Source of the DNA: Betaproteobacteria bacterium
GTDB lineage: Bacteria > Pseudomonadota > Gammaproteobacteria > Burkholderiales > SG8-41
Assembly (NCBI GenBank): GCA_900299145.1
Contig: OMIN01000022.1
Coordinates: forward strand, 1 to 49,159
DNA: 49,159 nucleotides
Reading direction: 5' to 3'
Shown piece after piece: positions 3,130 through 44,328 of this stretch. The first letter of the stretch is position 1; each line of letters begins with the position of its first letter. The notes under the pieces were generated by a model. The model saw only the letters and a program-made list of their open reading frames with translations. It made no database searches and was not told the DNA's origin. The position numbers were made by a program, and so were the translations under genes.

Positions 3130-3160
3130 TAAGTATTTGTTTTATATAACTTTTTTATAG
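3130..3160 (+). repeat. Dispersed AT-rich element, copy a
   Basis: Core AAGTATTTG at 3131-3139, then TTTTATATAAC and a TTTTTTATA half. It lies between two convergent genes, ending 4 bases from the stop codon of the chalcone-isomerase-like gene. Confidence 0.7.
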
Positions 3161-3163
3161 CCA

Positions 3164-3775
3164 TCAGAACAACCGCACACTGCCGTCACCACCCAACATG
3201 GCATCACGCAGGCGGCCATCCTCCGGCTTGTCGCCGATCCAAATGCGCAGCATCGCGCGAAAAAAATCCTCGCCCTTCACCACCAGCCTTTCTTCACTGT
3301 TGATGTGGATGTGCGTGCCGCTTGCCGGCAGGTAACTTAACGTAACCACTGCGCCCTTTTTCAGCACGCCTACCTTCAGCATCATGTCGTTCAACTGTCG
3401 CAGCCGCGCTTCGATCAGCGCAAGTTCCATTGGAATATGGTTCGCCGCCAGCGCATTGTTAAGCGAGGCCACCAGTTCCTTGGCGGTAATCTCGTCGGCG
3501 AGCACATGCATGGCGACACGCTTGGCGCCGCCGTCCTTGAGGATCGCTTCAGCCGCCGCCTGTTTCGCCGGCAGGTACAGCGCGCCAACGTAGAGCTTGG
3601 CAAAAGCGAGCTTGGTGCGTACACCCGCGCCGTTGAGTACCAGCGCCGTGCCGCCCGGCAAGGCAATTCGATCTTCGACGCGAACACCTTCGATGTCAGC
3701 CGCGCGCACCGGCATGGCACACACCATGCACAGCAGCCAACCACCCAGGAACGCAATGGTCTTGCGTACGCTCAT
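3164..3775 (-). CDS. Secreted chalcone-isomerase-like (CHI fold) protein
   Basis: 203 residues from the ATG at 3775, which has GGGGAGGA 4 bases upstream; the longer open frame lacks such a site. Residues 1-25 form a signal peptide ending VRA-AD. The rest matches the bacterial chalcone isomerase-like domain, with GTALVLNGAGVRTKLAFAKL and KLYVGALYLPAK near the N-terminus. In plants, related CHI-fold proteins bind fatty acids. Bacterial members are mostly uncharacterised, and flavonoid chemistry is unlikely here. The gene starts 22 bases after the thiolase gene ends, so it is probably the last gene of the fad block. A periplasmic fatty-acid-binding role is inference from that context. Confidence 0.8.
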   Translation of the reverse strand: MSVRKTIAFLGGWLLCMVCAMPVRAADIEGVRVEDRIALPGGTALVLNGAGVRTKLAFAKLYVGALYLPAKQAAAEAILKDGGAKRVAMHVLADEITAKELVASLNNALAANHIPMELALIEARLRQLNDMMLKVGVLKKGAVVTLSYLPASGTHIHINSEERLVVKGEDFFRAMLRIWIGDKPEDGRLRDAMLGGDGSVRLF

Positions 3776-3797
3776 ACGATCCTCCCCGCTACAGTAG

Positions 3798-4997
3798 TCA
3801 AAGCGACTCGAATACACCCGCTGCACCCATGCCGGTACCGATGCACATGGTCACCATGCCGTATTTTTTCTTCGTGCGCTTCAAACCATGCATCAGGGTG
3901 GCAACCCGAATCGCCCCGGTTGCACCGAGCGGATGGCCCAGCGCAATTGCCCCACCGAGCGGATTGATTTTTGAAGTATCCAACCCGAGCTCCTTGATCA
4001 CCGCCAGCGATTGCGCAGCGAAGGCCTCGTTCAACTCGATCCAGTCCAGCGCATCCTGTTTCAGGCCGGTTTGCTGCAACACCTTGGGGATCGCCTTTAC
4101 CGGACCGATGCCCATCACATCCGGCGGCACGCCTGCCACCGCGTAGCCCAGAAAACGCCCCATGGGCGTGGCATTAAAACGCTTCATCGCGGCTTCGCTC
4201 ATCAGCACCACCGCACCGGCGCCGTCGGACATTTGCGAACTGTTGCCCGCCGTCACGCTGCCCTTCACCGAAAACGCGGGCCGCAAACGCGCCAGCCCTT
4301 CGGGCGAAGTCTCTTTGCGAGGGCCTTCATCATGACTTGCCACGCGCGACTTTACCTTCACTTCCCGGCTCACCAGATCGGGCGTCTTTTCATTCACGGT
4401 ATAAGGCGCGATCTCATCCTTGAACTCGCCGCTTTCAATTGCGCGCAATGCACGCCGGTGACTCTCGGCGGCAAACATGTCCTGTTCTTCACGGGTGACT
4501 TTCCATTTCTCGGCAACGCGCTCGGCAGTGATACCCATTCCATAGGCAATGCCGACGTTTTCATCTTTCTCGAAAATCGCGGGACTGAACGATGGCTTGT
4601 TGCCGCCCATCGGCACCATGCTCATGCTTTCCGTGCCTGCGGCGATCATTACATCGGCCTCACCCAGGCGGATACGATCTGCCGCCATCGCCACCGCCTG
4701 CACGCCGGACGAACAAAAACGGTTAATGGTGAGGCCTGACACCGTGTCCGGAAAACCCGCGAGCAAGAGACCAATGCGCGCGACGTTCATGCCCTGCTCC
4801 GCTTCGGGCATGGCACAGCCGACGATGACATCGTCGATGGCTTTCAGATCCATGCCGGAACATTGGGCCACCGCGGCCTTCAGCACATGCGCCAGCAGAT
4901 CGTCGGGACGCACGTTTTTCAGCATGCCGCGCGGCGCTTTGCCAACGGGGCTGCGCGTGGCGGAAACGATGTAGGCATCTTGCACTTGCTTACTCAT
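3798..4997 (-). CDS. fadA: Acetyl-CoA C-acyltransferase (3-ketoacyl-CoA thiolase)
   Basis: Thiolase for the last beta-oxidation step, cleaving 3-ketoacyl-CoA with CoA to acetyl-CoA and a shortened acyl-CoA. It has 399 residues from the ATG at 4997, with AGGAG 8 bases upstream. Catalytic residues are present: nucleophile Cys95 (NRFCSSGVQA), His355 (GHPLGATG) and Cys385 (CIGTGMGAAG). It follows the HAD/crotonase fusion gene by 91 bases, in the same order as Bacillus fadN-fadA. The fad symbol rests on that context; some homologues are annotated as acetyl-CoA acetyltransferases. Confidence 0.92.
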   Translation of the reverse strand: MSKQVQDAYIVSATRSPVGKAPRGMLKNVRPDDLLAHVLKAAVAQCSGMDLKAIDDVIVGCAMPEAEQGMNVARIGLLLAGFPDTVSGLTINRFCSSGVQAVAMAADRIRLGEADVMIAAGTESMSMVPMGGNKPSFSPAIFEKDENVGIAYGMGITAERVAEKWKVTREEQDMFAAESHRRALRAIESGEFKDEIAPYTVNEKTPDLVSREVKVKSRVASHDEGPRKETSPEGLARLRPAFSVKGSVTAGNSSQMSDGAGAVVLMSEAAMKRFNATPMGRFLGYAVAGVPPDVMGIGPVKAIPKVLQQTGLKQDALDWIELNEAFAAQSLAVIKELGLDTSKINPLGGAIALGHPLGATGAIRVATLMHGLKRTKKKYGMVTMCIGTGMGAAGVFESL

Positions 4998-5088
4998 GCT
5001 TCTTCTCCTTGGCATGCAAGGATTGAGGATTGACGCTTGAGCAAGCCCAGCTGTGAGTCACTCAATGCACAATCCCCGATCCTCAATC

Positions 5089-7578
5089 CTAGTTCCTAAG
5101 CGGCCTGCCGGTCTTGAGCATATGCTCAATCCGCGCCTGCGTTTTCTCTGTCGCCAACAGTTCCATGAAATGCTGGCGTTCCAGATCGAGGAACCACTGC
5201 TCGTCGACCAGACTGCCCGCTTCGACGTCGCCACCGCACATCACAGTCGCAACTTTGCAACCGATCAGATGATCGTGTTCGGAAATGTGGCCGCCGGCCA
5301 GCATGTTTTCGAGAACGGTGCGGATGGTGGCAATTTCGCTGCGGCCCGCCGCCGGAATTGCCGTTTGCCGCAACGGCGGACGATAACCGCCAGCCGCCAG
5401 TGCGCGCACTTCGGCCTTGGCGATTTCCAGCAATTCAAAACGGTTCATCACCACTTTGTCGGTAGCACGCAAGTAGCCGATGTCGCGCGCGTGTTCGGCG
5501 CTGCGGCTCACTTCGGGGGTAGCCACTGCCTTGAAATACCTCTGTATAAAGAACGATGTCGCGCCGCCCTTCCCGTCCGCCACCGCGCGCATCGCGAATT
5601 CCTTGCAGCCGCCGCCCGCCGGCAACAGACCCACACCAACTTCGACCAGCCCAAGGTAACTTTCATGTGTAGCCACCGCGCGGTCGCAATGCATCACGAA
5701 TTCACAGCCGCCGCCCAGCGCCAGCCCATCGACTGCGGCCACGGTGGGGATCATCGAATACTTCAGCGCCTGCGTGGTGATCTGAAATTGCTCCACCAGA
5801 TGCTCAACTTCGGCGAGCTTGCCCGCCATCAGTTGATCGGCCACGCCGATTTGCCGCGCGGCTTTCAGCGCCAGCGATTCGGCTTCTTTCTTGAACGAGC
5901 GCAGCAGCTTGCCGAAGCCCGACGGTTTCGATGCCGGGCGCGCGCCACCTGCTGGTGTTTTCTTCAAATTAGCGCCCACCGAAAACGGCGGCTCGGTCTG
6001 CCAGATTACCAACCCGGCGTAATCTTTTTCAGCCACTTCAATGGCCTGCTGCACGCCGTCGAGCACATCATCACCAATCGCATGCATGCGGCTCTTGAAA
6101 CTGACGATGGCGATATCGTCACCGGTGTGCCAGCAACGTACGCCGTCGGTCTCGAATATCGTCGTGCCGTATTGGCGCTCTTCGCCCAACAGTTTGTCGG
6201 AGAACGGCTGGCGCCTATAAACCGGCAATGCAGAGCGCGGCTGATAACTGGTGGCCGTTGGCGCAAACGAACCTTGAGGCGTATGCACGCCTACGCGCGC
6301 CGCATCGGCCGCCCAAGCGGGCAGCGGTGTGGTGGTCATCGCCTTGCCCGCCGCGATGTCTTCCGCGATCCATTTCGCCACCTGTTGCCAGCCCGCCGAC
6401 TGCCAGATTTCAAACGGGCCGGTTTCCCAGCCAAAGCCCCAGCGAATGGCGAAATCCAGATCGCGCGCGTTGTTGGCGATGTCGGCCAGATGCGCCGCGC
6501 AGTAGTGAAACGCATCGCGGTAGACTGCCCACAGAAACTGCGCCTGCGGATGGTTCGACGCATGCAACTGTGCAAAACGCTCACTGACGTTTTTATTCTT
6601 TAGAATTTCTTCCACGCCTTCATCGGCCTTGCCATCTGAGACGCGATATTTTTGTTCTTTTAAATCAAGTACTTGAATATCCCGCCCAACCTTCTGGTAA
6701 ACGCCGCGTTTGGTCTTTTGGCCCAGTGCGCCCTGATCGATCAAACCTTTCAGCCATGCCGGAACGGCGTAATATTTGTGCCACGGGTCATTCGGCAGCG
6801 TGTCCTTCATGGTGTTGACGACATGCGCGAAGGTATCAAGGCCCACCACATCGGCGGTGCGGAAGGTGGCGCTCTTCGGCCGGCCGATCAACGAACCGGT
6901 CAACGCATCCACGGTGTCGAACCCGATACCTAAGCGCTCGGCGTGATGAATCGTCGCCAGCATGGAAAACACGCCCACGCGATTGGCAATGAAATTCGGC
7001 GTGTCCTTGGCGCGAATCACGCCTTTGCCCAAATTGGTGACAAGAAACTTTTCGAGGCTGTCGAGGATTCCCGCTTCGGTTTCCTTGCAAGCGATCAACT
7101 CCACCAGATGCATGTAACGTGGTGGATTGAAAAAATGCACGCCGCAGAAGCGATGCCGCAATTCAGCGGGAAACGCACTCGCCAGCTGATTGATAGACAG
7201 GCCGGACGTGTTGCTGGCAAAAATCGTGTGCTCACCCAGATGCGGCGCGACTTTCTTGTAGAGATCGGATTTCCAGTCCATGCGTTCGGAAATCGCCTCA
7301 ATCACCACGTCGCATTCTTTCAGCAACCCGAGATGCTGATCGTAATTGGCGGGCCGGATCAACCCGGCGCGCGCGGCCGTGGCCAGCGGGCTGGGCTCCA
7401 GCTTGCGCAGATTATCGACGGCTTTGAGCACGTTGCCATTGGGATCGCCCTCTTTCGCGGGCAACTCAAACAGAATGGCTTCAACGTTGGCATTGACGAG
7501 ATGTGCGGCGATTTGCGCGCCCATCACGCCCGCGCCGAGTACGGCGACTTTACGGACGAGAAACGGTGTGGCGGACAT
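5089..7578 (-). CDS. fadN: 3-hydroxyacyl-CoA dehydrogenase/enoyl-CoA hydratase fusion, FadN type
   Basis: 829-residue bifunctional beta-oxidation enzyme from the ATG at 7578 (GGGAG 5 bases upstream). The NAD-binding motif VAVLGAGVMGAQ is at residues 11-22, and the dehydrogenase signature GVHFFNP lies near residue 130. The C-terminal third is a crotonase domain with both hydratase glutamates in place (GGGCE and GLVEVG). The order dehydrogenase-then-crotonase is that of Bacillus FadN, the reverse of E. coli FadB/FadJ. It would convert trans-2-enoyl-CoA to 3-ketoacyl-CoA for the adjacent thiolase. A linker near residues 300-330 is unusually AT-rich at DNA level, without breaking the frame. Confidence 0.93.
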   Translation of the reverse strand: MSATPFLVRKVAVLGAGVMGAQIAAHLVNANVEAILFELPAKEGDPNGNVLKAVDNLRKLEPSPLATAARAGLIRPANYDQHLGLLKECDVVIEAISERMDWKSDLYKKVAPHLGEHTIFASNTSGLSINQLASAFPAELRHRFCGVHFFNPPRYMHLVELIACKETEAGILDSLEKFLVTNLGKGVIRAKDTPNFIANRVGVFSMLATIHHAERLGIGFDTVDALTGSLIGRPKSATFRTADVVGLDTFAHVVNTMKDTLPNDPWHKYYAVPAWLKGLIDQGALGQKTKRGVYQKVGRDIQVLDLKEQKYRVSDGKADEGVEEILKNKNVSERFAQLHASNHPQAQFLWAVYRDAFHYCAAHLADIANNARDLDFAIRWGFGWETGPFEIWQSAGWQQVAKWIAEDIAAGKAMTTTPLPAWAADAARVGVHTPQGSFAPTATSYQPRSALPVYRRQPFSDKLLGEERQYGTTIFETDGVRCWHTGDDIAIVSFKSRMHAIGDDVLDGVQQAIEVAEKDYAGLVIWQTEPPFSVGANLKKTPAGGARPASKPSGFGKLLRSFKKEAESLALKAARQIGVADQLMAGKLAEVEHLVEQFQITTQALKYSMIPTVAAVDGLALGGGCEFVMHCDRAVATHESYLGLVEVGVGLLPAGGGCKEFAMRAVADGKGGATSFFIQRYFKAVATPEVSRSAEHARDIGYLRATDKVVMNRFELLEIAKAEVRALAAGGYRPPLRQTAIPAAGRSEIATIRTVLENMLAGGHISEHDHLIGCKVATVMCGGDVEAGSLVDEQWFLDLERQHFMELLATEKTQARIEHMLKTGRPLRN

Positions 7579-7642
7579 GGAACTCCCTCGAACGGCCATC
7601 GGCAATTCAGGCTGGTTAAGCCATTTTACGCGTTGCGCAAGT

Positions 7643-12295: not shown

Positions 12296-13087
12296 TTAAC
12301 TCTGCCGCGCGCCAAACACCGCCTTGCGCTTGTCCACGAACGCCGTCACACCTTCGGCAAAGTCCGGCTGCGCGGCACAACGCGAAAAGGCCAGCGCCTC
12401 GGCATCGAGATGCTCTGTAAGCATTTGATTTATTGAGGAATTTACCATGGCCTTGGTCTCGGCATAGGCGGTCGCCGGGCCAGCCGCCAGCTCCCGGGCA
12501 AGCTTTGCAGTAGCGGTATCGAGTTCCGCCAGCGGCACTACGCGATTCACCACGCCCATCATCTGCATCTGTGTGGCATCCACCGATTCAGCCAGCAATA
12601 ACAACTCCATCGCTTTTTGATACCCGATCAAGCGCGGCAAAAACCAGCTCGAGCCGCCGTCGGGGCTGGTGGCGATGCGGCTATAAGCCATGTTGAACTG
12701 CGTGCCCTCGGCGGCGATGATGAGATCACTCGCCAGCATGATGCTCATGCCGCCGCCCGCCACCGCGCCATGCACGCTGGCAATCACCGGCTTGCGCGCG
12801 CGCCGCAGGGCGAGTATGCCGCGATGAAACTCGCCCGCCATTCCAACGATGTCACGCGAAAACGTCGCCAGCCGTTCCTTGAACGAGGCTACATCGCCGC
12901 CCGCCACAAACGCCGCCCCCGCTCCGCGCATTATCACCACGCGTGCGCTGGCGTCCTGTTCAGCGCGCTCGCAAATCGCGCGAAACAGTACGATCGTGTC
13001 CGGATCCAGCGCGTTATATACCTTGGGCCGGTTGAAGGTAATGGTGGCAATTCCGCTGTCAACGCCGTACAGAATATTTTCGCTCAT
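12296..13087 (-). CDS. Crotonase-fold protein, PaaG-like isomerase type
   Basis: 263 residues from the ATG at 13087, 7 bases after the fadE stop. Crotonase-fold signatures are clear: TITFNRPKVYNALD, an oxyanion loop GGDVASF, and HGAVAGGGMS. The two glutamates of a true hydratase are missing (GGGMS replaces GGGCE; AYSRI replaces PEI). Instead it has PDGGSSW, the aspartate motif of PaaG-type enoyl-CoA isomerases. It more likely shifts double bonds, needed for unsaturated fatty acids, than hydrates them. It sits between fadE and the SDR gene in a tight operon. Confidence 0.87.
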   Translation of the reverse strand: MSENILYGVDSGIATITFNRPKVYNALDPDTIVLFRAICERAEQDASARVVIMRGAGAAFVAGGDVASFKERLATFSRDIVGMAGEFHRGILALRRARKPVIASVHGAVAGGGMSIMLASDLIIAAEGTQFNMAYSRIATSPDGGSSWFLPRLIGYQKAMELLLLAESVDATQMQMMGVVNRVVPLAELDTATAKLARELAAGPATAYAETKAMVNSSINQMLTEHLDAEALAFSRCAAQPDFAEGVTAFVDKRKAVFGARQS

Positions 13088-15575: not shown

Positions 15576-15597
15576 GTGTGCCGCCTGTTTAAAAATT

Positions 15598-15620
15598 ATT
15601 AAATTAAATCAAATACTTAC
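15598..15620 (-). repeat. Dispersed AT-rich element, copy b
   Basis: Minus-strand core AAGTATTTG (15610-15618) followed by ATTTAATTTAA. It lies about 35 bases upstream of fadE in a 187-base gap. In reverse it contains AATCAAATACTTA, an exact fit to the IHF consensus WATCAANNNNTTR. Confidence 0.7.
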
Positions 15621-15762
15621 AAATAATACATCCCGTCTGTTCGCGCGCGGGTTGCCTCCCCGATATCCCGGCGCTGCGAGGCATCTTATCGTGTTTGAGA
15701 CCCGGCACGACGGAACCGCTGAAATACGCGCTAACCCATGGTTGGCAGGCCCGACCGGTCGG

Positions 15763-21454: not shown

Positions 21455-21878
21455 TGCTTCTCCTTGGAGGAACGAGTGGAAATGGGCTTGCTGAACTGCT
21501 TGCAGAGGACTCTGAAACCGGAGGGTATTTTAGCTGAAAGTGGGAGGAGGCGAAATCTTTGCGTGAGGCTTGGTTACAGTAAGTATTTGTTTTTATTGAA
21601 TTATTTATAAAGTGGACTAACGTGCCAACCATAAGCCGCCAGAACACCTGCCGGTGTGCGATAGGCCTCACTGGATAGTCTGTCCTCAGTCACATCAATA
21701 GCGATTCAAAGTCTGCCTTGCCCGCCTCGCACAATTGCCGTAGCTTACTTCTTGTGACGATGACCAAAAGCGCCGACACCTACGCACATAGGTTTCCGAG
21801 ACAATCAGACTCTAGCGATGGCGGATAGTCGCTTTCGCGTCGAATTTGAATATTGCTGCATAAAACTAGTTAGCCGTC
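21455..21878. other. 424-base intergenic region upstream of etfB
   Basis: Holds the etfB leader, dispersed-element copy c (21577-21610), a small palindrome ACACC-TGCC-GGTGT (21644-21657), and the GTTAGCC box just before the DUF6000 gene. GC content falls noticeably from about 21570 onwards. No further gene is supported. Confidence 0.6.
21577..21610 (+). repeat. Dispersed AT-rich element, copy c
   Basis: Core AAGTATTTG at 21581-21589, then TTTTTATTGAA and TTATTTATAA. It is one of the longest-conserved copies, about 127 bases upstream of etfB on the opposite strand. Confidence 0.75.
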
Positions 21879-22569: not shown

Positions 22570-23346
22570 ATGTGCGGCCGCTACGTCCCACCCGATGAAG
22601 CCGCTCTAGAGCGCTTCTGGAAAATCGACCGCAAGAATTGGCGGGCGTGGATCGAGCCGGTCTTCAACCTTGCACCGACCACGCAAGTGCCCATTCTGGT
22701 TCGCGCCGACGATGGCGCGCTGGAACTCTTCTGTGCGCGCTGGGGGTTGATTCCGCCTTGGTGGAAGAAAGACATTCCGCCTTCGCTCACCTTCAACGCC
22801 CGCTCCGAAGAAGCCCGCCAGAAGCCGACGTGGCGCCACGGGCTGCGCGCGCAGCGCTGCCTGATGCCGGCGCGGGGCTGGTATGAATGGAATGAGAATG
22901 AACCGGTGCGCAACGAATCAGGCCGCACTGTCAACCAGCCGTATTTTCTTTACAGCCCCAACGCGGAAGTGATCGCCTTCGCCGGCATCTGGGCGGTTTG
23001 GGAAAGCCCCACGGGGCCGGTCATCTCGTGCGCCTTGCTGTCAAAGGCAGCGGCGCCCAGCATCGCGCACATTCACCACCGCATGCCCGTGGTGCTTGCA
23101 CCGGAGCAGTACGACACCTGGCTATCGCAGGCGGCAACCGAAGCCGAGGTGGATGCCGCCATCGCCAAAGCCCGGCAGGATTTCGCGGGCCACCGCGTCA
23201 GCACGCGTGTAAACAATACGCGGAACAATTCGCCCGCGTTGATCGAAGCAGTTGCCGCACAAACTGGCACTGTGGCGCAAGCCAAACCGCCAGCCACGAA
23301 ACGCCGCAGCGCCAGCAAAGTAGACCTTAATAACTCTCTGTTTTAA
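22570..23346 (+). CDS. SRAP-domain protein (HMCES/YedK-like abasic-site protease)
   Basis: 258 residues starting MCGRYVPP: after removal of Met the N-terminal Cys2 forms the thiazolidine crosslink to abasic sites in single-stranded DNA. Further conserved parts are FNARSEEARQKPTWR, RCLMPARGWYEW (Glu) and HHRMPVVL (the active His). Compared with E. coli YedK (222 residues) it has a basic C-terminal tail ending KRRSASKVDLNNSLF. It protects abasic sites during replication. It starts 64 bases after the DUF6000 gene on the same strand but differs in composition. Confidence 0.93.
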   Translation: MCGRYVPPDEAALERFWKIDRKNWRAWIEPVFNLAPTTQVPILVRADDGALELFCARWGLIPPWWKKDIPPSLTFNARSEEARQKPTWRHGLRAQRCLMPARGWYEWNENEPVRNESGRTVNQPYFLYSPNAEVIAFAGIWAVWESPTGPVISCALLSKAAAPSIAHIHHRMPVVLAPEQYDTWLSQAATEAEVDAAIAKARQDFAGHRVSTRVNNTRNNSPALIEAVAAQTGTVAQAKPPATKRRSASKVDLNNSLF

Positions 23347-23414
23347 TTAGTGTTTTTATAGTGTTCGGCAACGCTTGGACTCGCCTGTTTCGTTTGTATC
23401 GCATACGTCGGATG

Positions 23415-25238: not shown

Positions 25239-25264
25239 GATGACCGCCTTTTCACGCCAAATAA

Positions 25265-25290
25265 ATTGTTTAAAAACAAATACTTACATT
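25265..25290 (-). repeat. Dispersed AT-rich element, copy d
   Basis: Minus-strand core AAGTATTTG (25277-25285), then TTTTTAAACAATTTAT. It lies 8 bases after the stop of Bug gene 3 and about 40 bases before the start of Bug gene 2. Confidence 0.7.
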
Positions 25291-25293
25291 AAA

Positions 25294-26262: not shown

Positions 26263-26267
26263 TATTT

Positions 26268-26287
26268 TAACTATTTGTTTTTAATAG
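26268..26287 (+). repeat. Dispersed AT-rich element, copy e
   Basis: Variant core AACTATTTG at 26269-26277, then TTTTTAATAGG. It overlaps the stop codon of the TonB receptor gene and forms the leader of Bug gene 3. Confidence 0.6.
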
Positions 26288-28428
26288 GAAAATTCTGCGG
26301 TAATGCCGATCATCGCGTTGCGCCCCGGCGCCGGTTCGTAGTAACGATTGTTGGCCTCCGCCACGATCACCGAGCCGATGTAGTTCTTGTCACCAACGTT
26401 GTCTACGCGCACAAACTCGGTGAGCTTCCAGTTGCGCCCGCGCTGTTGCAGGCCCGCGCGCAGATTGAACACGGTGTAAGCCGCAGCCGATTCGGAGTTT
26501 TGATCATTCACCCACACCTTGCCACTGTGGCGCACTTCCACGCCCGCGTGGAAGCCATATTGCGGGTAACGCCACACCAGCTCGCAATACAGATTGTTCC
26601 CCGCAATGCCCGGCAGCTTGCTGCCTGCCGGCACGGCCACCGCCACCGACGGCGTGCCGGTCACCGTGGTGAAGGGCTGTGTGAAGCGAGCGTTGAGCAG
26701 CGTGTAAGACAGCGCCGTCTCGAAGCCCAGTGGCAGTTTGTGCGCGTAGCCGAATTCCAGACCCTCGCGACGCGTGCCCTGCACGTTCTTGAAATCCGAA
26801 CGCCCGCCGGCGTTGGAATTGACCACGATTTCGTCGGACACATCAATGCGGAACAGCGAAACATTCGCGCGACCGTTGTCACCCACCAGCGCCTTCAAAC
26901 CGATTTCCTTGTGCAGGCTGTTGGCAGGCCGCAGCGCAAAATTCAAACCGGTCGCGCCGCCCGGGCGGTAGGCTAATTCTGCAAACGTCGGCGTCTCGAA
27001 CCCTTTGCCGATATTGGCGTACGCGTTAAACGTCGGCGTGAACTTGTAAATCGCGCCAAACGCCGGCGTGGTACGCGAATAATCCACCCCGCCGCTATCG
27101 TTCGGGTTACCGGTCGCGATGAAATAATCGAGCGACTCGAATTTCACCCGGCTGTGGCGCAGCCCGGTCAGCAGACTCAGATTTTTAATGACCTGCCATT
27201 CGGCCTGCGCGTAGACATCGGTGTTGGAAACCGTGTTGTCTTCGTCGCGCTTTAGTGCGCCGGTGACGCCAAAGTTGTTCAGAAAGCCGCGGCGGCGTTC
27301 CTTCATGCGGTCGTAATCCACACCTGCGGAAAGTGTAAATGGCCCGCCAGCCAGCCGCGTCTCATGCGTCATGCGCAGGGCCGCACCACCGTAGCCGCGA
27401 TCCAGATCCACCACGCCGCCCGAATGTGTTGCCGCCACCTGTGTGGCCGTGGGAATCGCCAGATGTTGCGTTACCTGCCGGTCGCCCAGATACACACGCG
27501 CATTGAGTTTGCCGCCCTGCCACGGCGACACGTCGTAGGTCAGCCCCGCCTGATTCTGCGCGATGCTCTTGCGCGTATTGAAGTTGTAGGCGTTGGTGGG
27601 CGTTGCGCCGGTAAACGTGCCCCCCGCCCCGCGCGGATTTTGCGCCACTTGCGCGGCAGTCAAGCCCAGCGGGTCTTCGGTTTCCGGCTGGTCGAGCGCG
27701 TTCACCACCAGTGTAAACACACCGGCGCTGCCAAGGTCATACTTGAATTTCCCGTTCAAATGATCACGCCGCGCAGCACTGTGATCACGATAGCCGTTGG
27801 TCTCGAAGCGCGAGGCATCAATCACCATGTTAAGCGGCCCATGCTGCCCGCCGTAATTCGCATCGAGCTTGTAGGTGCCGTAGCTGCCATAAAGCCCGCT
27901 CAGTGAAAATGTCGGCTCCTTGGGCCCGTCGGCGGTAAAAATCTGCACCACGCCGCCAGCGGAGTTGCCATAAAGGCTGGCAAACGGGCCGCGCATGACT
28001 TCTATGCTTTTTGCCGACGACAGGCTGAACGTCGCGGCTTGCCCCTGGCCGTCCGGCATGGTGGCAGGGATGCCATCGGCGATAAGGCGCAGACCTCGCA
28101 CGCCGAACGTCGAACGCGCACCGAAACCGCGCGACGAAATCTGCAGATCCTGCGCGTAGTTCTGGCGGTTGGCAACGGTAATGCCCGGCACGCGGTTTAA
28201 CGCCTCGGACAGATTCACCTGTGGATTGGCCTCGCGGATGGTGCGCTGATCGACGGTGTCGATGGCCGCCGGGATATCCATGTTATCGCGCGCGACGCGC
28301 GTGGCGGTCACCGACACTTCGGGCAGCACGGCGGGCTTTTGCGGCGACGGTGCAGTCTGCGCCTGCGCCAGCGTGGCCAGCGCGGCGGCAACCGCGGCTG
28401 CCGATGTCTTCAGTAGCGGAAAAGTCAT
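26281..28428 (-). CDS. TonB-dependent receptor, YncD/PqqU-like
   Basis: 715 residues from the ATG at 28428 (GAGGAA 6 bases upstream; the longer frame is unsupported). A signal peptide ends LAQAQ, then a plug domain and a 22-strand barrel ending in Phe-Ser-Tyr. Motifs NRQNYAQDLQISSRGFGARS, DGIPATMPDGQGQ, MRGPFASLYGNSAGGV and the near-terminal GSVIVAEANNRYYEPAPGRN are, as I recall, the signature of E. coli YncD, shown to import pyrroloquinoline quinone and renamed PqqU. It follows a PQQ-type dehydrogenase gene by 102 bases on the same strand, so PQQ uptake is the best guess. Other TonB substrates cannot be excluded. Confidence 0.85.
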   Translation of the reverse strand: MTFPLLKTSAAAVAAALATLAQAQTAPSPQKPAVLPEVSVTATRVARDNMDIPAAIDTVDQRTIREANPQVNLSEALNRVPGITVANRQNYAQDLQISSRGFGARSTFGVRGLRLIADGIPATMPDGQGQAATFSLSSAKSIEVMRGPFASLYGNSAGGVVQIFTADGPKEPTFSLSGLYGSYGTYKLDANYGGQHGPLNMVIDASRFETNGYRDHSAARRDHLNGKFKYDLGSAGVFTLVVNALDQPETEDPLGLTAAQVAQNPRGAGGTFTGATPTNAYNFNTRKSIAQNQAGLTYDVSPWQGGKLNARVYLGDRQVTQHLAIPTATQVAATHSGGVVDLDRGYGGAALRMTHETRLAGGPFTLSAGVDYDRMKERRRGFLNNFGVTGALKRDEDNTVSNTDVYAQAEWQVIKNLSLLTGLRHSRVKFESLDYFIATGNPNDSGGVDYSRTTPAFGAIYKFTPTFNAYANIGKGFETPTFAELAYRPGGATGLNFALRPANSLHKEIGLKALVGDNGRANVSLFRIDVSDEIVVNSNAGGRSDFKNVQGTRREGLEFGYAHKLPLGFETALSYTLLNARFTQPFTTVTGTPSVAVAVPAGSKLPGIAGNNLYCELVWRYPQYGFHAGVEVRHSGKVWVNDQNSESAAAYTVFNLRAGLQQRGRNWKLTEFVRVDNVGDKNYIGSVIVAEANNRYYEPAPGRNAMIGITAEFSY

Positions 28429-29868: not shown

Positions 29869-30124
29869 TCATTATGCCGCAAGGCTGGCAGCAGACGACA
29901 AGCTACATTTACCACTGCGCTTCCAAGTCATGCCGCCATGGTCGAAAATCGCCGCGCGTTGTGCAAGGGCCAGCCTCCGGGGAACTGATGATTTCCGGCG
30001 CAGGTCAAAAAAATACTACAGAAAAAAATACGTCTCATCCGCGCCATAGGCTGCGCGCAAGGCTCACTCGCGAGCCCGGGCCGGAACAGACTCACCGGCC
30101 GGATTGAAAATTCCCAAAAATTCA

Positions 30125-30143
30125 TAAGTATTTGTTTTTATTA
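30125..30143 (+). repeat. Dispersed AT-rich element, copy f
   Basis: Core AAGTATTTG at 30126-30134, then TTTTTATTACA and TTTATTT. It lies in the middle of the divergent region, far from both start codons. Confidence 0.7.
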
Positions 30144-30596
30144 CATTTATTTCCGCCGCCGCTGCGCTCCTCCTTGTCCCCCGTCCTCCCCGGCAACACT
30201 TGCGCCCGAATCGCGGAACCGGTAGATTCGCCCGAACTGTCAAGGCAAGGCGTATCCGCTGATCCGCCGCCGGATGATTTCGCATCACACAGAAATTTCC
30301 TAAATAGTTCAAATGGTTATTGTCAGCCGTCTGTTGTCCCGCAGTTCGCGCTCGCTGGCCGCCAGCATCGGCTTTGCGTGCTGGCGTTCGAGCGGCGGGG
30401 ATACAGCGGATGGCGAAGGAGACGGTGAAGCGCCGGTTTTTGGCCCCCGTATCGCCTCCCTCCCGCGCACCATTCCCGGTGCCCGCGCCGCCGCGAATCC
30501 GCGAAGCGCACCGCCCTTCCCTGACAATCGCCCCGATTTTCGCTGTTCCAAACCAGCCGTGGCTGCCTGTTCACGGCGATTTTTCAGGAGATTTTC

Positions 30597-31700: not shown

Positions 31701-32302
31701 AGCGGCGGCAAGTCACACCACGGCGGTTCCGGCCCCGTGGTGTTTTTTTTGACAGTGCAACGACGGCGTGGCTGCGTACTGCGGTCCTGTCGCTATCGTT
31801 ATCGCCATCCCCATTCTTCAGCGGGCTGGCGCTGGCCGCCGAAAAAGCCATCATCAAGGCTGCCAGCGGCGCGCCCGCCCAACCGCTTGCACTGAAGACA
31901 CTGGACGGCGTCACACACGATATTGCGAAACTGCGCGGCAAAGTGGTGCTGGTGAATTTCTGGGCCACGTGGTGCGAGCCTTGCCGCGACGAAATGCCTT
32001 CCATCGAAAAGCTCAAGGCGAAATTGGCGGATCAACCGTTTGAGGTGCTGGCGGTCAACGTCGACGAACCGGAGGCGCGCGTGCGCGCGTTTCTCGAAAA
32101 AACTCCGCTCGCGCTGACCGTCGTGCTCGATCCCGGTAAAGCCGTCACCAAAAGCTGGAACGCACGTATTCTGCCAGCCAGTTACCTCATCGGCCGCGAA
32201 GGCCGCGTGCGCTACACCGTCACCGGCGAAATCGACTGGAGCAGCGAGCGCGCCACGAGCATGGTGAATGAAATGCTGAAAGACATTCCGCGAAAAAAAT
32301 AA
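31697..32302 (+). CDS. TlpA/ResA-like periplasmic thioredoxin
   Basis: 201 residues if begun at the GTG at 31697, which overlaps the transglutaminase stop. The N-terminal 50 residues are basic then hydrophobic (AWLRTAVLSLSLSPSPF), ending near ALAAE, consistent with export. The redoxin domain has VNFWATWCEPCRDEMPSIEK with a CxxC active site, and the cis-Pro segment ARILPASYLIG. It would reduce disulfides in periplasmic partners, for instance during cofactor insertion or for the neighbouring Cys enzyme. No ATG, GTG or TTG exists in frame between 31697 and the domain, so the terminator at 31715-31750 lies within this coding sequence. Confidence 0.85.
   Translation: MKRRQVTPRRFRPRGVFFDSATTAWLRTAVLSLSLSPSPFFSGLALAAEKAIIKAASGAPAQPLALKTLDGVTHDIAKLRGKVVLVNFWATWCEPCRDEMPSIEKLKAKLADQPFEVLAVNVDEPEARVRAFLEKTPLALTVVLDPGKAVTKSWNARILPASYLIGREGRVRYTVTGEIDWSSERATSMVNEMLKDIPRKK
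31715..31750 (+). terminator. Rho-independent terminator or attenuator after the transglutaminase gene
   Basis: CACCACGG (31716-31723), an 11-base loop, and CCGTGGTG (31735-31742) form a perfect eight-pair stem followed by eight T (31743-31750). It is 15 bases after the transglutaminase stop and inside the signal-peptide region of the TlpA frame. Ribosomes entering by the GTGA overlap would melt it, so it may work as an attenuator. Confidence 0.8.
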
Positions 32303-32304
32303 CT

Positions 32305-32325
32305 TAACTAAATCAAATACTTATC
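32305..32325 (-). repeat. Dispersed AT-rich element, copy g
   Basis: Minus-strand core AAGTATTTG (32314-32322), then ATTTAGTTAAGTT. It starts 3 bases after the TlpA stop. In reverse, AATCAAATACTTA fits the IHF consensus exactly. Confidence 0.7.
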
Positions 32326-32367
32326 ACGCTCCATGGTTTTAACCCTGCACAATCCAAAGGACCTGCC

Positions 32368-37346: not shown

Positions 37347-37373
37347 GTCGCACAGGTATCACGGCCAAGAAAT

Positions 37374-37396
37374 ATTAAATAAAATCAAATAGTTAC
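37374..37396 (-). repeat. Dispersed AT-rich element, copy h
   Basis: Minus-strand variant core AACTATTTG (37386-37394), then ATTTTATTTAAT. It overlaps the stop codon of the sensor-kinase gene, between convergent genes. In reverse, AATCAAATAGTTA fits the IHF consensus exactly. Confidence 0.65.
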
Positions 37397-39531
37397 TTAA
37401 CAACACTGGTTGAACCGCCCGGCGCCAGCCAGCGCCCCAGCAGCGCGTCGAAAGCCGGCGCGGTAACCGGTTTGGAAATGTAGTCGTTCATCCCCGCCTC
37501 GAGGCACTGCTCGCGGTAGCCGCTGAACGCGTGCGCGGTGAACGCGGCCACCGGCGTGGCCGGCCAGCCGCGCGCGCGCTCGATGTCGCGAATGCGTCGC
37601 GTCGATTCAAAACCATCCATTTCCGGCATCTGGCAATCCATCAGCACCAGGTCCAGCCCGCGCTCGCCACGATTTTCATATTCGCGCGCGCCGATGGCGC
37701 CGTTGCCCGCGTGTACCACGGTAATGCCGCGCGCGGCCAGCATCATCGACGCGATACGTGCGTTTAGCGCATCGTCTTCCACCAGCAGCACACGCTTGCC
37801 GGGATACTGCGGCAGCGCGGCGCGGCGCGCGACGGCGGCTTCCTCGGCTGACGCAGCCGGCAGCGGCAGCTCGATCCAAAAGCGCGAACCTGCGCCGGGC
37901 GTACTGTCGAGCCCGCATTCGCCCAACATCAGATTGACGAGGCCGCGAACCAACGTCAGCCCCAGCCCGGAACCGCCGTGGCGGCGCGTCAGCGAACCAT
38001 CCGCCTGCGTGAACGCCTCGAAAATACGCGCGTGCGCCTCGGCCGGAATGCCCACGCCGGTATCGATGACCTCAATCCGCACTTTGCCCGGCGCGGCGGC
38101 GGCGGCCCGCACTTCGATGCGGCCTTGTGCTGTGAATTTCACCGCGTTGTCCATCAGATTGGCCAATATCTGGCGCAGCCGCGCTGGATCGCCCCTCACA
38201 TGACGCGGCAAGCCCGGCGCCAGGGTGACGGTAAGTTGCACCGATTTGGCAGCGGCCTCCGCCTCAAACAGCCTGGCGGTATCACGCACCGCCAGCTCCA
38301 GATCGAATACCCTGCGCTGGATCTCGAGCTGGCCCGATTCGACGCGCGAAAAATCCAGCACGTCGTCCAATACCGCCATCAACGACTGGCTCGCGCGCCG
38401 GATGTTTTCCAGGTATTCGCGCTGCCGCGGCGCCAGCGTGTCCTGCAGCAGAATTTCCGTCATGCCGAGTACGCCGTTCATCGGCGTGCGCACTTCGTGG
38501 CTCATGTTGGCCATGAACTGCGACTTGGCCAGACTCGAAGCCTCGGCCGCGCTGCGCGCCGCCTCCAGCGCGGCCTCCGCCTGTTTGCGCGCGGTAATGT
38601 CGCGCACGAATAACAGGAATACCTCGCGGTCTTCGACCTGCATGCCGGCCGCCGACACCTCCGCCGGGAATTCATGCCCATTCGTGTGCGTAAACTGCGT
38701 TTCGATCTGGTTCCAACTGCCGGCGGGCAATCGGCAACTGTCCCGATAATCTCGGAACGTACTGCCTCGCCCCTCTCGAAGGCGCGCTGGCACCAAGGGC
38801 AGCAGCGCCTTGCCACGCAGCGCAGCCGGCGCCTCGCCAAAAACCGCCTGCACCGCCGGATTGGCGTATTCGATACGTCCACCAGCATCGACAATCAGCA
38901 CCGCGTCCTGCGCGGTCTCCCACATCGTGCGGTAAAACGCCTCGCTCTTATTGGTACGCGCGCGCAACGCACTAACGTATCCGCCCATGAAACTGAACCA
39001 CGCCAGCGCGGCGGCCAGCATCAGCCACTGGAACATTTCCAGCCGCGCATCAAATTGTCCGGCGTGGTAACGCAGGTCCAGATAAATAATCAGGCCATAG
39101 GCCAGCAACGCCAGCGCCGCCAGCCGCCAAAGTTGCCTGGCCTGAAGCCGGAACACGCCGAACACGAAAATCAGCAACACCCACAATAGGCCGATGCCGC
39201 GCGCAGCGCCGGCGTGATAAACCATGAACATGAGCGCGCAGATGCCCGCCATGATCTGCCATTCCGTCAGGCTGGGGTCCGCGCAACGCAGATTCACGCC
39301 GGTGACAAACGCCAGGTAAAATGCCACGTTGATGGCCACCACGATCAACACGAACGTGACCAGCACATCCATGCCGCAAAACTCCATCCGCGCGGCCAGG
39401 CCCGCCGTAGCCACAGCCAGCAAATAGGCTGCTGCCGCAAGCCGCAAACGCTTCAGGCGCAACGACTGGCGCTCTTGTTCGGTATAGGCCGTGCGCGCCG
39501 GGATGGGCGCACCATCCAGCGGAGAGCTCAA
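37393..39531 (-). CDS. Hybrid sensor histidine kinase with PAS and receiver domains
   Basis: 712 residues. About six membrane helices lie in residues 28-200, then a PAS domain (TMWETAQDAVLIVDAGGRIE) near 205-320. The HisKA phospho-His motif is FMANMSHEVRTPMNGVLGM. The HATPase domain has NLMDNAVKFT, DTGVGIPAEAHARIF and GGSGLGLTLV. A C-terminal receiver has the phospho-Asp in LVLMDCQMPEMDGFE and Lys in ISKPV. No separate regulator or Hpt gene is adjacent, so its output partner is elsewhere. The TTG start at 39531 has GGGAG 8 bases upstream. It is BarA/ArcB-like in domain order. Confidence 0.92.
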   Translation of the reverse strand: MSSPLDGAPIPARTAYTEQERQSLRLKRLRLAAAAYLLAVATAGLAARMEFCGMDVLVTFVLIVVAINVAFYLAFVTGVNLRCADPSLTEWQIMAGICALMFMVYHAGAARGIGLLWVLLIFVFGVFRLQARQLWRLAALALLAYGLIIYLDLRYHAGQFDARLEMFQWLMLAAALAWFSFMGGYVSALRARTNKSEAFYRTMWETAQDAVLIVDAGGRIEYANPAVQAVFGEAPAALRGKALLPLVPARLREGRGSTFRDYRDSCRLPAGSWNQIETQFTHTNGHEFPAEVSAAGMQVEDREVFLLFVRDITARKQAEAALEAARSAAEASSLAKSQFMANMSHEVRTPMNGVLGMTEILLQDTLAPRQREYLENIRRASQSLMAVLDDVLDFSRVESGQLEIQRRVFDLELAVRDTARLFEAEAAAKSVQLTVTLAPGLPRHVRGDPARLRQILANLMDNAVKFTAQGRIEVRAAAAAPGKVRIEVIDTGVGIPAEAHARIFEAFTQADGSLTRRHGGSGLGLTLVRGLVNLMLGECGLDSTPGAGSRFWIELPLPAASAEEAAVARRAALPQYPGKRVLLVEDDALNARIASMMLAARGITVVHAGNGAIGAREYENRGERGLDLVLMDCQMPEMDGFESTRRIRDIERARGWPATPVAAFTAHAFSGYREQCLEAGMNDYISKPVTAPAFDALLGRWLAPGGSTSVVK

Positions 39532-40636: not shown

Positions 40637-40728
40637 ACGACCCGCTGGGGCAGCAAGGCTGAACTCCCGGCTCGTCGGTGATAACACAAGCCGTCCGGCG
40701 CAATAGGGATTGCGTCCTACATCACCCA

Positions 40729-41151
40729 TCATGCACTCACCTCAGCCGTAAATACCGGCAACGTCGTTTCCTCATCATGCGGCCCCTGCTCCTCAAACGC
40801 TACCCGAACCGCCATGCCGATCCGCACGGCATCCGGCGCAACACCGGTCAGCCGCGTCATCAAATGCGGCCCTTCGGCTAACGCCACCACCGCCACCACG
40901 TACGGCACCAGCGCCTCGAATCCCTTGCTCGGCGCGCGATGCACCACGGTAAAACTGTAGACCTCGCCCTTGCCGCTCAACTGCTGCCACGCGAGATCGC
41001 GCGACCCGCAGTGCGGGCAGGTGCTGCGCGGATAAGAATGAAATTTTGCACAGGCTGCACAACGCGGCAGTTTCAATTCGCCCTGGTGCGCCGCCTGCCA
41101 GTACGGCGCGGTCAGTGGGTTGGGCGACGGCAAAGGCCGGGGAAAGTTCAT
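40729..41151 (-). CDS. DUF35 zinc-ribbon/OB-fold partner of a thiolase-like protein
   Basis: 140 residues from the ATG at 41151; the longer frame upstream is the thiolase-like gene read out of phase. An N-terminal rubredoxin-like zinc ribbon has CAAC and CPHC (residues near 32-35 and 46-49). An OB-fold follows, GKGEVYSFTVVHRAPSKGFE. Such proteins bind thiolase-superfamily partners as CoA-ester-binding subunits. In the steroid side-chain pathway the DUF35 part of ChsH2 with Ltp2 forms a retro-aldolase. It follows the thiolase-like gene by 50 bases. Confidence 0.9.
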   Translation of the reverse strand: MNFPRPLPSPNPLTAPYWQAAHQGELKLPRCAACAKFHSYPRSTCPHCGSRDLAWQQLSGKGEVYSFTVVHRAPSKGFEALVPYVVAVVALAEGPHLMTRLTGVAPDAVRIGMAVRVAFEEQGPHDEETTLPVFTAEVSA

Positions 41152-41175
41152 GGCGCGCCTATATCGTATATTGTT

Positions 41176-41206
41176 GTAAATATTTGTTTTTATTGACTTT
41201 TTTATA
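41176..41206 (+). repeat. Dispersed AT-rich element, copy i
   Basis: Variant core AAATATTTG at 41178-41186, then TTTTTATTGAC and TTTTTTATA, very like copies a and c over about 28 bases. It spans the gap next to the stop codon of the thiolase-like gene. Confidence 0.7.
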
Positions 41207-42362
41207 CGCTTAAAATCAGCGTGCAATGGATCGCGATAGTGCCGCCGTTGCCGTGCACCAGCGCCAACTTGGCGTCCTTTACCTGCCGCGCGCCCGCTTG
41301 CCCACGCACCTGCCGCACGCCTTCGAGCACGTGAAAAAGCCCGCCGGGCAATCCCGGATGTGCGCATGACAGCAAGCCGCCATGCGTCGTGACTGGCAGC
41401 TCGCCGCCGAGTGAAATTCGCCCGCCCTGCACGAACGCACCGCCCTCGCCCTTTTTGCAAAAACCCAAGTCTTCGAGTTCGATGATGACGGTAATGGTGA
41501 AGCAATCGTAGAGTTCGGCGACATCGATATCGGCGTGTTTCACGCCAGCCATCTCGAACGCCTTCTTGCCCGATTCCACCGCGCCGCTGAAAGGCAGCTT
41601 CAGTGCCTCGCCGACATAACTGTGACTCAAACCGTAACCCTGCCCCAGCACGCGCACCGGCTTTTGTTTGAGATCACGCGCACGATCCGCGCTGGTCACG
41701 ATCACCGCCGCCGCGCCATCCGACACCAGCGCGCAATCAAAGCGCTTTAGTGGCGAGGTAATCATCGGCGACGCCATGACATCCTGCACGGTGATGGGTT
41801 TGGTCATGTGCGCATTCGGGTTCAGCAGCGCGTGCTTGCGGATGGTCACCGCCACTTCCGCCATCTGTTCGGCGGTGGTGCCGTATTCATACATGTGCCG
41901 TTGCGCGATCAGCGCATAGTTCGACGCCACCAGCGGCCCATACGGCGCCTCAAACTGCGGATGCGCGGCGCCCGATTCCGCCATCGTCTGCACCGCCGAG
42001 GCGCGCGTCTTGTTGGTGAGCAGGTCCTGCCCCGCCACGCACAACACCGTGTTGCACTGGCCCGACGCCACCGCCATCGCCGCGTGATGAATCATCGCGC
42101 AACCCGAAGCGCCGGCCAGGTCCAGTGTCGACAAATACGCCGGCTGCACGCCGAGAAAACTCGACACCACGCCGCACGGCATGTTCCACGGCTCGACGCG
42201 AATTGGCGTGGTGATGAGGCCATCGATATCGGCAAGCGTGAGGCCCGCGTCGTCCAGTGCGGCGTGCGCGGCATCGCTTTGCAGTTGCAGCGCGCTGCGG
42301 TCGGGCACTTTGCCAAGGCGGCTTTCGCCGATGCCTACAATTCTGGTATCAGCGAGATTCAT
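41202..42362 (-). CDS. Thiolase-fold protein lacking catalytic cysteines (SCP2/Ltp2-like)
   Basis: 386 residues of the SCP-x/lipid-transfer thiolase branch. The nucleophile position is glycine: AGASGCAMIHHA around residue 84 replaces C-x-S-G. The C-terminal cysteine motif is LVHGNGGT (His370). The histidine motif remains (AHPGLPGG, His335). This matches non-thiolytic members such as Ltp2, which with a DUF35 partner cleaves beta-hydroxyacyl-CoA by retro-aldol reaction. A DUF35 gene lies directly downstream. Its ATG overlaps the acyl-CoA dehydrogenase stop (ATGA), so the two are co-translated. Database names will often say acetyl-CoA acetyltransferase. Confidence 0.88.
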   Translation of the reverse strand: MNLADTRIVGIGESRLGKVPDRSALQLQSDAAHAALDDAGLTLADIDGLITTPIRVEPWNMPCGVVSSFLGVQPAYLSTLDLAGASGCAMIHHAAMAVASGQCNTVLCVAGQDLLTNKTRASAVQTMAESGAAHPQFEAPYGPLVASNYALIAQRHMYEYGTTAEQMAEVAVTIRKHALLNPNAHMTKPITVQDVMASPMITSPLKRFDCALVSDGAAAVIVTSADRARDLKQKPVRVLGQGYGLSHSYVGEALKLPFSGAVESGKKAFEMAGVKHADIDVAELYDCFTITVIIELEDLGFCKKGEGGAFVQGGRISLGGELPVTTHGGLLSCAHPGLPGGLFHVLEGVRQVRGQAGARQVKDAKLALVHGNGGTIAIHCTLILSV

Positions 42363-43510: not shown

Positions 43511-43513
43511 GGG

Positions 43514-43549
43514 ATCCTCAGGTTCCTCACGTTCCTTACGTACCTTACG
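43514..43549. repeat. 9-bp tandem repeat in the acyl-CoA dehydrogenase leader
   Basis: Four units of about TTCCTYACG. On the coding strand they read CGTAAGGTA, CGTAAGGAA, CGTGAGGAA, CCTGAGGAT, ending 3 bases before the ATG. Each unit carries a purine-rich Shine-Dalgarno-like core; decayed units continue to about 43570. Confidence 0.8.
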
Positions 43550-43576
43550 TTCCTCTCACACCCCTCACGCCCTTGC

Positions 43577-44299
43577 TCACGCTTCGCCGCCTGCGGCGCG
43601 CCATGCCACCATGGCGCGCTCGGCCCTTTCCAGCGCCTCGCGCTGGGGCTGGCGCATCCATGCCTTGTTCGCTGCGAAGGCGCGCGCGGGCTTGGCCATC
43701 AAATCCCGCGCGAGTTTTTCAGCAGTGGCGGCAACTTCCTCGCGTGGCACAACACGGCGCGCGATCCCGCGCTGCACGGCCTCCGTTGCACTCAGGTTGC
43801 GCGCGCTCTGCACCAGATCATACGCCAGCGCGCTGCCCGTCAGCGGCGCCAATATCGCCATCCCGGCCAGCGGCGGGGAACCCAAGTCAATTTCCGGCAA
43901 GGCAAAAAACGCGTTTTCAGCGGCGATGATCGCGTCGGCAAGTGCTGCAATCATGAACCCGCCGCCGCTCGCCACACCATTCACCGCGGCCACCACCGGC
44001 TTTTCGAATTCGGCCAGCTGCATCAGCACGGCAAAAAATGCCGTGGAGCGCGACTGTCTGTACTGGCGCAGCTCTGCTTCCGGCAGCGCCGGCGCGTACC
44101 GCACATCCACGCCGCCGGAGAACACACGCTCCCCCGCGCCGGTGATCAACACGCCACGAACGGCGGCGGTGTTGCGCGCCTCATGCAGCACCCGTGTCAG
44201 CGCGTGCAACATGTCGACCGTCAGCGAGTTGGCTTTTTGCGGGCGGTTAAACGTGACGGCGAGCAGCCCATCGCGTTGTTCCAACAGTAAATCTGCCAC
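43577..44299 (-). CDS. Crotonase-fold protein, one catalytic glutamate only
   Basis: 240 residues from a GTG at 44299, with AAGGAT 7 bases upstream. Crotonase signatures are VTFNRPQKANSL, the oxyanion loop VFSGGVDVRY, and ASGGGFMIAALAD. The first hydratase glutamate is replaced by Met, while the second is kept in ALPEIDLG. It is slightly short for the family. It may be an isomerase, thioesterase or hydrolase rather than a hydratase. It follows the CoA-ligase gene by 31 bases and precedes the acyl-CoA dehydrogenase in the operon. Confidence 0.87.
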   Translation of the reverse strand: MADLLLEQRDGLLAVTFNRPQKANSLTVDMLHALTRVLHEARNTAAVRGVLITGAGERVFSGGVDVRYAPALPEAELRQYRQSRSTAFFAVLMQLAEFEKPVVAAVNGVASGGGFMIAALADAIIAAENAFFALPEIDLGSPPLAGMAILAPLTGSALAYDLVQSARNLSATEAVQRGIARRVVPREEVAATAEKLARDLMAKPARAFAANKAWMRQPQREALERAERAMVAWRAAGGEA

Positions 44300-44310
44300 A
44301 GAAATATCCT

Positions 44311-44328
44311 TATAAAACAGATACTTAG
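44311..44328 (-). repeat. Dispersed AT-rich element, copy j
   Basis: Minus-strand variant core AAGTATCTG (44318-44326), then TTTTATA. It lies 4 bases after the CoA-ligase stop and about 19 bases before the crotonase start; the least conserved copy. Confidence 0.55.

Follow-up and report, generated by a model that had tools for sequence, protein, structure and literature searches.

Evenly spaced IHF-type sites in uncultured Betaproteobacteria and their possible role in nucleoid organisation

Introduction

Integration host factor (IHF) bends DNA, and its sites are normally single and located at promoters, origins or att sites. A distinguishing feature of one of these, the H' site in attP of phage lambda, is an A/T-tract at a fixed distance. 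IHF sites are also held by dispersed repeats, such as the repetitive IHF-binding palindromic (RIP) and bacterial interspersed mosaic (BIME) elements of Escherichia coli and the Correia elements of Neisseria, which are longer, and palindromic or mobile. Here, we describe a short AT-rich element from a Betaproteobacteria bacterium (order Burkholderiales), of which a first-pass annotation listed ten copies in a 49,159-nt stretch of DNA, hereafter the window, located on contig 22 of the source genome (OMIN01000022.1). Like RIP/BIME and Correia repeats, this element is dispersed and intergenic and contains an IHF-type site, but little beyond the site itself is conserved. It also differs from ordinary IHF sites, since the genome holds an extrapolated 1,550-1,750 evenly spaced, near-consensus copies, with inner bases biased towards GTAT and CTAT, and T favored over A at position +9.

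The other described systems that come close are the uptake signal sequences (USS) of Haemophilus and the DNA uptake sequences (DUS) of Neisseria, although the core of the element is unrelated to the DUS core. According to excerpts of two studies, USS and DUS share with the element a copy number above 1,000, a rather even spread and lineage dialects (PMC7811141, PMC12616744), and the USS core is flanked by AT-tracts as is the core of the element (PMC7811141). However, the USS cores given in an excerpt of PMC12616744, AAGTGCGGT and ACAAGCGGT, are unrelated to the core found here, which is of the IHF type. No comparable array was found in the literature that was searched, consisting of open-licence PMC papers. 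As outlined below, IHF is very probably the protein that reads these elements, and we give an even chance to the proposal that the array organises the nucleoid in the presence of IHF and the absence of HU.

An abundant 28-nt element in near-consensus copies

The first-pass annotation would have been refuted by a genomic copy number no higher than in shuffled intergenic DNA, and it withstands the genome scan: the exact 9-mer core occurs 476 times in the 5.51 Mb source genome (158 contigs), 238 times on each strand, compared to 21 times for the reversed 9-mer. In a 769 kb sample of this genome, the 9-mers TAACTATTT and TAAGTATTT were at the top of the over-represented words, with 42 and 62 occurrences against 0.5 and 1.0 expected under an order-2 model, and TAASTATYT together with its overlapping words formed the highest-ranked group. 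Under a maximal-order Markov model no 9-mer stood out clearly, since there the sub-words of the element raise the expectation. A matrix covering positions -6 to +29 was built from the same 769 kb, window included. This matrix detected 244 sites above 16 bits (controls: 5 after local shuffling, 13 after reversal) and 214 sites above 28 bits (none in either control). The scores peaked at 38-50 bits, well clear of the background, thus the copies are close to the consensus and do not form a degenerate tail. In 100 kb of E. coli K-12, three sites exceeded 16 bits and none exceeded 24 bits, versus 32 and 27 in 109 kb of the source genome, and when the inner bases were masked these numbers were 4 and 1 versus 33 and 27. 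The window gave no match to Rfam at gathering scores.

The conserved unit is about 28 nt long and asymmetric, reading YAA-STAT-YTG-W-TTT, followed by an A/T stretch and a second T-tract. The information spans about -1 to +25, and conservation drops off beyond about -6 to +27. Taken in order and apart from the inner bases, conserved columns had frequencies of Y.98, A.99, A.92, T/C.94, T 1.0, G.98, A/T 1.0, T.95 and T.99. The T-rich half was rightly counted as part of the unit by the first-pass annotation, with T-tracts at +10 to +12 and +20 to +25. Among 269 copies, the inner tetramer was GTAT in 108 and CTAT in 65. The sample comprised 40 stretches, 32 from contigs preselected for holding the core and 8 taken blind, and its core density (96 per Mb) exceeds that of the whole genome (86 per Mb); therefore, the extrapolated copy number is given as a range of ~1,550-1,750, or one per ~3.3 kb, instead of as plain 1,750.

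The element matches the IHF binding site

On the A-rich strand, the conserved letters of the element read WAWCARNNNNTTA. The attP region of phage lambda contains three matching sites, TAAGTAGTTGATT, TAATATATTGATATTTATATCATTTTA and CAACAAATTGATAAGCAATGCTTTTTT, which we take to be the IHF sites H1, H2 and H'. The T-tract of CAACAAATTGATAAGCAATGCTTTTTT begins at +20, as in the element, so that the likeness to lambda covers both the conserved letters and the T-tract distance of the CAACAAATTG...TTTTTT site. As in IHF sites, the inner four bases of the element vary between orthologous sites across species (see below). IHF has many cellular roles and binds at the consensus WATCAANNNNTTR, as stated in an excerpt of PMC8942017, and the element matches this consensus, read as YAANNNNTTGATW on the T-rich strand. 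Because of this identity, which includes the T-tract spacing, and the variation of the inner bases across species, IHF is very probably the reader of the elements. Of the three functions that the first-pass annotation had offered, a nucleoid-protein site, a transcription-unit boundary mark and a degenerate miniature element, the first is the best supported, as judged from the consensus and the T-tract spacing. In the part of PMC6907758 that was consulted, the IHF and H-NS motifs of Table 2 are seemingly printed in each other's rows, and this table was not relied on.

Elements are evenly spaced and largely indifferent to gene orientation

Genes were assigned with a simple caller of our own, which gave 755 genes and 90% coding sequence. 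Of 240 non-overlapping sites, 177 were intergenic, 59 were inside called genes and 4 at the ends of stretches. Among gaps of at least 20 bp, occupancy was similar in all three arrangements: 124 of the 354 co-directional gaps held an element, as did 27 of the 83 convergent and 26 of the 95 divergent ones (p = 0.37). Even short co-directional gaps were occupied, 24 of 106 at 20-49 bp and 44 of 107 at 50-99 bp. None of the 32 divergent gaps below 100 bp held an element, and 16 of 27 did so at 200-399 bp. There was a slight orientation bias in co-directional gaps, the T-strand running with the genes in 49 cases and against them in 75 (p = 0.02). The class of sites inside genes includes some miscalled starts, owing to the simple caller. 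Of the 59 sites, 37 kept a distance of over 60 nt to either gene end, and 12 of these 37 scored above 38 bits. Some strong elements were located in the first codons of called genes (e.g., L012 at ~4030 and L027 at ~910), and in our reading the frame through such elements encodes a hydrophobic, signal-peptide-like stretch.

Over 136 intervals on 8 contigs, elements were on average 3.3 kb apart, and the coefficient of variation of the spacing was 0.57. Only 2 of the 136 intervals were shorter than 500 bp, 2 were longer than 8 kb and none was shorter than 150 bp. When the same number of sites was placed in random gaps, the coefficient of variation was 0.90 +/- 0.07 and never fell below 0.72 in 1000 trials. 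Elements are thus spaced far more evenly than random. With regard to short intervals, USS differ: according to an excerpt of PMC7811141, 23% of the strong ones in H. influenzae have another one within 100 bp.

The array marks part of one family and varies by lineage

The pattern TAANNNNTTGWTTTNNT was counted, together with controls, in 399 genomes sampled from the order. A strong excess was confined to the source family and to one genome of another family (G416, 98 versus 5 in the control); in a 61 kb sample of the latter, the sites were mostly of the TTGATT type. The other genomes had counts of at most 41, and those above 30 had controls of at least 15. A mild excess was common elsewhere (e.g., 15 versus 1 in G111 and 20 versus 5 in G339), as expected for ordinary IHF-like sites. 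Within the 74 genomes of the source family, the array was present in 38 of 39 genomes of four genera (g1 13/14, g6 1/1, g7 21/21, g8 3/3), and the 35 genomes of genera g2, g3, g4, g5 and g9 had no or almost no array, their highest counts being 22 versus 3 (G014, g2) and 9 versus 0 (G456, g3). In small samples of 61-100 kb each from G014, G020 (g8) and G416, none of the 14 top 8-mers per sample was another dispersed word of comparable strength.

The inner four bases differ by lineage, as if there were genus dialects. In a partial listing of sites from the three genomes of genus g8 (G020, G026 and G031), the inner bases were often other ones, i.e., TAACATATTG, TAACTTATTG and TAATCCGTTG. Variation was also seen at orthologous positions. 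A site was located directly 3' of comEC in 7 of 11 species (it was absent from L052, L056, L058 and L059), and these seven sites retained CAA or CAG (TAA in one) and TTA around the inner tetramers ATAC, TTGG, TAGC, ATGG, TAAG, TCAG and ATAC, six of which are different. Beside a second gene family, a site in the same orientation was found in all nine species compared, in gaps of two classes, with GTAT in five species and four other tetramers in the rest. In a third comparison, of a near-zero gap, a site was present in 6 of 7 species; the gap measured 2 bp in the species that lacks it, and of the six that have it, five showed gaps of -4 to 3 bp and the sixth a gap of 66 bp. On these few comparisons, sites seem to arise and decay by substitution and not by insertion.

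By ComEC, the closest relatives that bear a name are assemblies of uncultured Betaproteobacteria, whose isolate names point to fresh water as the probable source. Several records titled Bordetella parapertussis (L053, L054, L055, L059, L077, L105 and L125) are relatives of this uncultured lineage, and seem to be mislabelled environmental assemblies.

IHF without an HU match, and a proposed nucleoid array

The source genome encodes two PF00216 (DNABII) proteins and no third. Both, IhfA (104 residues) and IhfB (95 residues), score above the curated NCBIfam cut-offs and match IHF chains in the PDB; the PF00216 search gave no match to HU in this genome. With IhfA and IhfB as the only members, IHF would have to bear the DNA-bending load alone. 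Of the 14 genomes of genus g1, in which only some PF00216 proteins were classified individually, 12 have exactly two such proteins; the exceptions are G009 with three and G010 with none. PF00216 proteins were found in 45 of the 46 relatives searched. Four relatives without the array (G015 and G023 of g3, G017 of g5 and G022 of g2) have three each, one of which is HU-like. Among PDB chains, HU was the best match for the top-scoring PF00216 protein of G015 and of G017, and comparison with the IHF of the source genome gives the same impression for G022, G023 and most other families. All 18 genomes searched from other families have at least three PF00216 proteins.

These findings suggest a scheme in which IHF would occupy the elements chromosome-wide and sharply bend the DNA at near-regular intervals, and the DNA sequence would thereby set the layout of the nucleoid. 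We infer the binding of IHF in vivo, the bending at the elements and the organisation of the nucleoid from sequence comparison. The even spacing, the indifference to the direction of transcription and the absence of HU fit such a chromosome-wide structural role. If this proposal is correct, the bends of this chromosome are encoded in its sequence at near-regular distances, and genome data would suffice to derive nucleoid architecture and to compare it between organisms. A testable cause would then be given by the missing HU match in the source genome, along with the agreeing DNABII counts in most of the genus.

Several observations weigh against this proposal. At +9, where the IHF consensus has an A, the source genome has T in 67% and A in 33% of its copies (A prevails in the samples of G006, G019 and G416), and the inner four bases, left free in the published consensus, are strongly fixed. 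Moreover, the absence of HU is not sufficient, since the array is missing or almost missing in G014 (g2), G016 and G024 (g4), each with just two PF00216 proteins. The arm and core segments of IHF are nearly identical in the source genome, G009 and G020, so that the different inner bases of G020 are not obviously explained by changes in IHF. Finally, G009 keeps IhfA and IhfB with near-identical arm segments, yet it has no array, and its extra PF00216 protein, which is IhfB-like, does not obviously explain this.

Uptake sequences as the main rival explanation

G009 is the reason why DNA uptake is the main rival explanation: it is the sole array-less member of the four genera (24 matches versus 12 in the control), keeps IHF, and lacks matches to ComEC and DprA, the only one of the 14 g1 genomes to do so. 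In the order gyrB, a 140-residue, a 365-residue and a ~890-residue protein gene, dprA, a LysM-like gene, def and fmt, taken from G013 and G010 (G009 locus L231 was set against L232 and L233), dprA alone is missing from G009; the names other than gyrB and dprA in this order are presumed. A frame-checked gyrB tree with 11 of the 14 g1 genomes placed G009 within the array-bearing clade (support 100/99), its exact position there being unsettled, thus the loss of the array is probably secondary. A ComEC tree had rows with extra stops, slight in L057 and strong in L058 and L125, and no conclusion is based on it. The elements could, on this explanation, be DNA uptake sequences like those of Pasteurellaceae and Neisseriaceae: the competence machinery would prefer DNA that carries them, and biased uptake followed by recombination would spread and keep them. 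A pilus receptor, or IHF itself, would then use the IHF-like form for its bend or narrow groove. We regard this as possible but rather unlikely.

In favor of uptake, the copy numbers, the 238/238 strand balance, the AT-tracts, the even spacing and the copies inside genes (59 of 240) resemble those of H. influenzae USS as described in an excerpt of PMC7811141. The lineage-specific inner bases, which are fixed within a species, resemble dialects. In addition to ComEC and DprA, G009 has no match to the GspH/FimT-type pilin, and it retains PilQ. However, no match to this pilin was found in G008 and G011 either, which carry the array but are 62% and 84% complete. G009 also keeps a match to the ComEA-type HHH_3 domain, as do 13 of the 14 g1 genomes, and it represents a single event that is confounded by a GC content of 48% (100 kb sample, versus about 59-61% in other g1 samples), a smaller genome of 4.0 Mb and the extra DNABII protein. 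Outside this genus, G427 (g7, 91% complete) has a full array (250 versus 2) but no ComEC match, and many relatives carry ComEC and DprA without an array. The motif itself argues against uptake as well, since its agreement with the IHF consensus would have to be a coincidence if a pilus receptor read it, and its core is not among the described USS or DUS dialects.

The gyrB region of G009 showed no clear relics of the element; one IHF-like site there also occurs in array-bearing species. A GTTTCACGTGAAAC word, presumably parS-like, lies beside the gyrB region in one gap with an IHF-like site that even G009 has retained (L231, L232 and L236). The gene order of G009 breaks beside ihfA.

Should uptake nevertheless be the function, an IHF-type site would have become the self-recognition mark for natural transformation in this uncultured lineage of Betaproteobacteria. 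Uptake sequences would then have arisen a third time, here with inner bases that form a dialect in each genus, and the array would have been lost together with comEC, dprA and the FimT-type pilin, a scenario that we put forward only tentatively. It would add a third lineage with self-recognition in transformation, with G009 as a natural loss experiment. Both uptake and nucleoid organisation would put a known DNA site to a new use, and either way the question why cells keep more than 1,000 copies of a short word becomes comparable across some forty related genomes.

Local regulation, boundary marks and mobile element relics

A distinctly less probable explanation is that the elements are many separate regulatory or insulating IHF sites, acting on neighboring genes without a chromosome-wide role. 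The many roles of IHF at this consensus (excerpt of PMC8942017), the proximity of sites to genes and the retention of the compared positions across species would agree with this, but the similar occupancy of the gap classes, the empty divergent gaps below 100 bp (0/32) and the even spacing are unexpected for gene-by-gene regulation. Moreover, the array is restricted to part of the family, though PF00216 proteins are nearly universal among the relatives searched (45/46).

That the element is a transcription-unit boundary or terminator mark, as the first-pass annotation had suggested, is very unlikely. Seven of its ten copies (3131, 25277, 26269, 32314, 37386, 41178 and 44318) indeed lie within ~25 bases of a stop codon, and in 10 of the 240 sampled copies the TAA of the element serves as stop codon for the upstream gene, but an AT-rich motif that starts with TAA will often coincide with stop codons in GC-rich DNA. 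The occupied short co-directional gaps and the occupied divergent gaps of 200-399 bp (16/27) speak against a boundary function, as do the three gap classes being occupied alike. Between positions 20000 and 38000 of the window there was no excess of hairpins, with 24 terminator-like sites versus 23.7 expected, and none was listed at an element. The first-pass annotation was also right to reject a simple promoter or operator: the same interval contained one sigma-70-like match versus 5.3 expected, lying across the element at 21575-21610 on the opposite strand, and the occupancy of convergent gaps is about that of the other gaps. The degenerate miniature mobile element, for which the high copy number could be cited, is barely credible, since conservation declines shortly beyond the 28-nt unit (outside about -6 to +27), the spacing is even, and the element may overlap the coding ends of its neighbors without lengthening the gap, as judged from few comparisons that include one well-comparable near-zero gap without added length.

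Copies in the window

With the 769-kb matrix and a threshold of 16 bits, all ten copies of the first-pass list were recovered, each scoring above 36 bits; the six exact cores (0.13 expected by chance) were confirmed, and the four variants are one-mismatch copies. The list was incomplete, since four more places exceeded the threshold, one of them (23326) with 37.5 bits and three weaker (6645, 12413 and 30289). The claim that all copies lie between genes, and none in the fad run at 3.8-15.5 kb, holds for the strong copies, but the sites at 6645 and 12413 are located in genes of this run.

The exact cores on the forward strand are located at 3125..3160 (46.3 bits), between the convergent 3' ends of the ETF-QO gene and a chalcone-isomerase-like gene, and in divergent gaps at 21575..21610 (52.5 bits) and 30120..30155 (45.0 bits). 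Those on the reverse strand lie at 15589..15624 (53.0 bits), upstream of an acyl-CoA dehydrogenase gene, at 25256..25291 (44.9 bits), between two TctC-type genes, and at 32293..32328 (39.9 bits), overlapping the stop codon of a redoxin-domain gene. The weaker additional sites comprise an element at 12413..12448 (+, 29.0 bits) within an enoyl-CoA hydratase gene, and two element-like sites that may be due to chance, at 6645..6680 (-, 26.1 bits) within a 3-hydroxyacyl-CoA dehydrogenase gene and at 30289..30324 (-, 19.8 bits). The stronger addition to the list, at 23326..23361 (+), is located at a stop codon between convergent genes. CTAT variants are found at 26263..26298 (+, 39.2 bits), overlapping with the 3' end of a gene for a TonB-dependent receptor, and at 37365..37400 (-, 45.9 bits), between convergent 3' ends. 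An ATAT variant at 41172..41207 (+, 50.6 bits) lies at the stop codon of a thiolase gene, and a TATCTG variant at 44297..44332 (-, 36.8 bits) between two co-directional genes.

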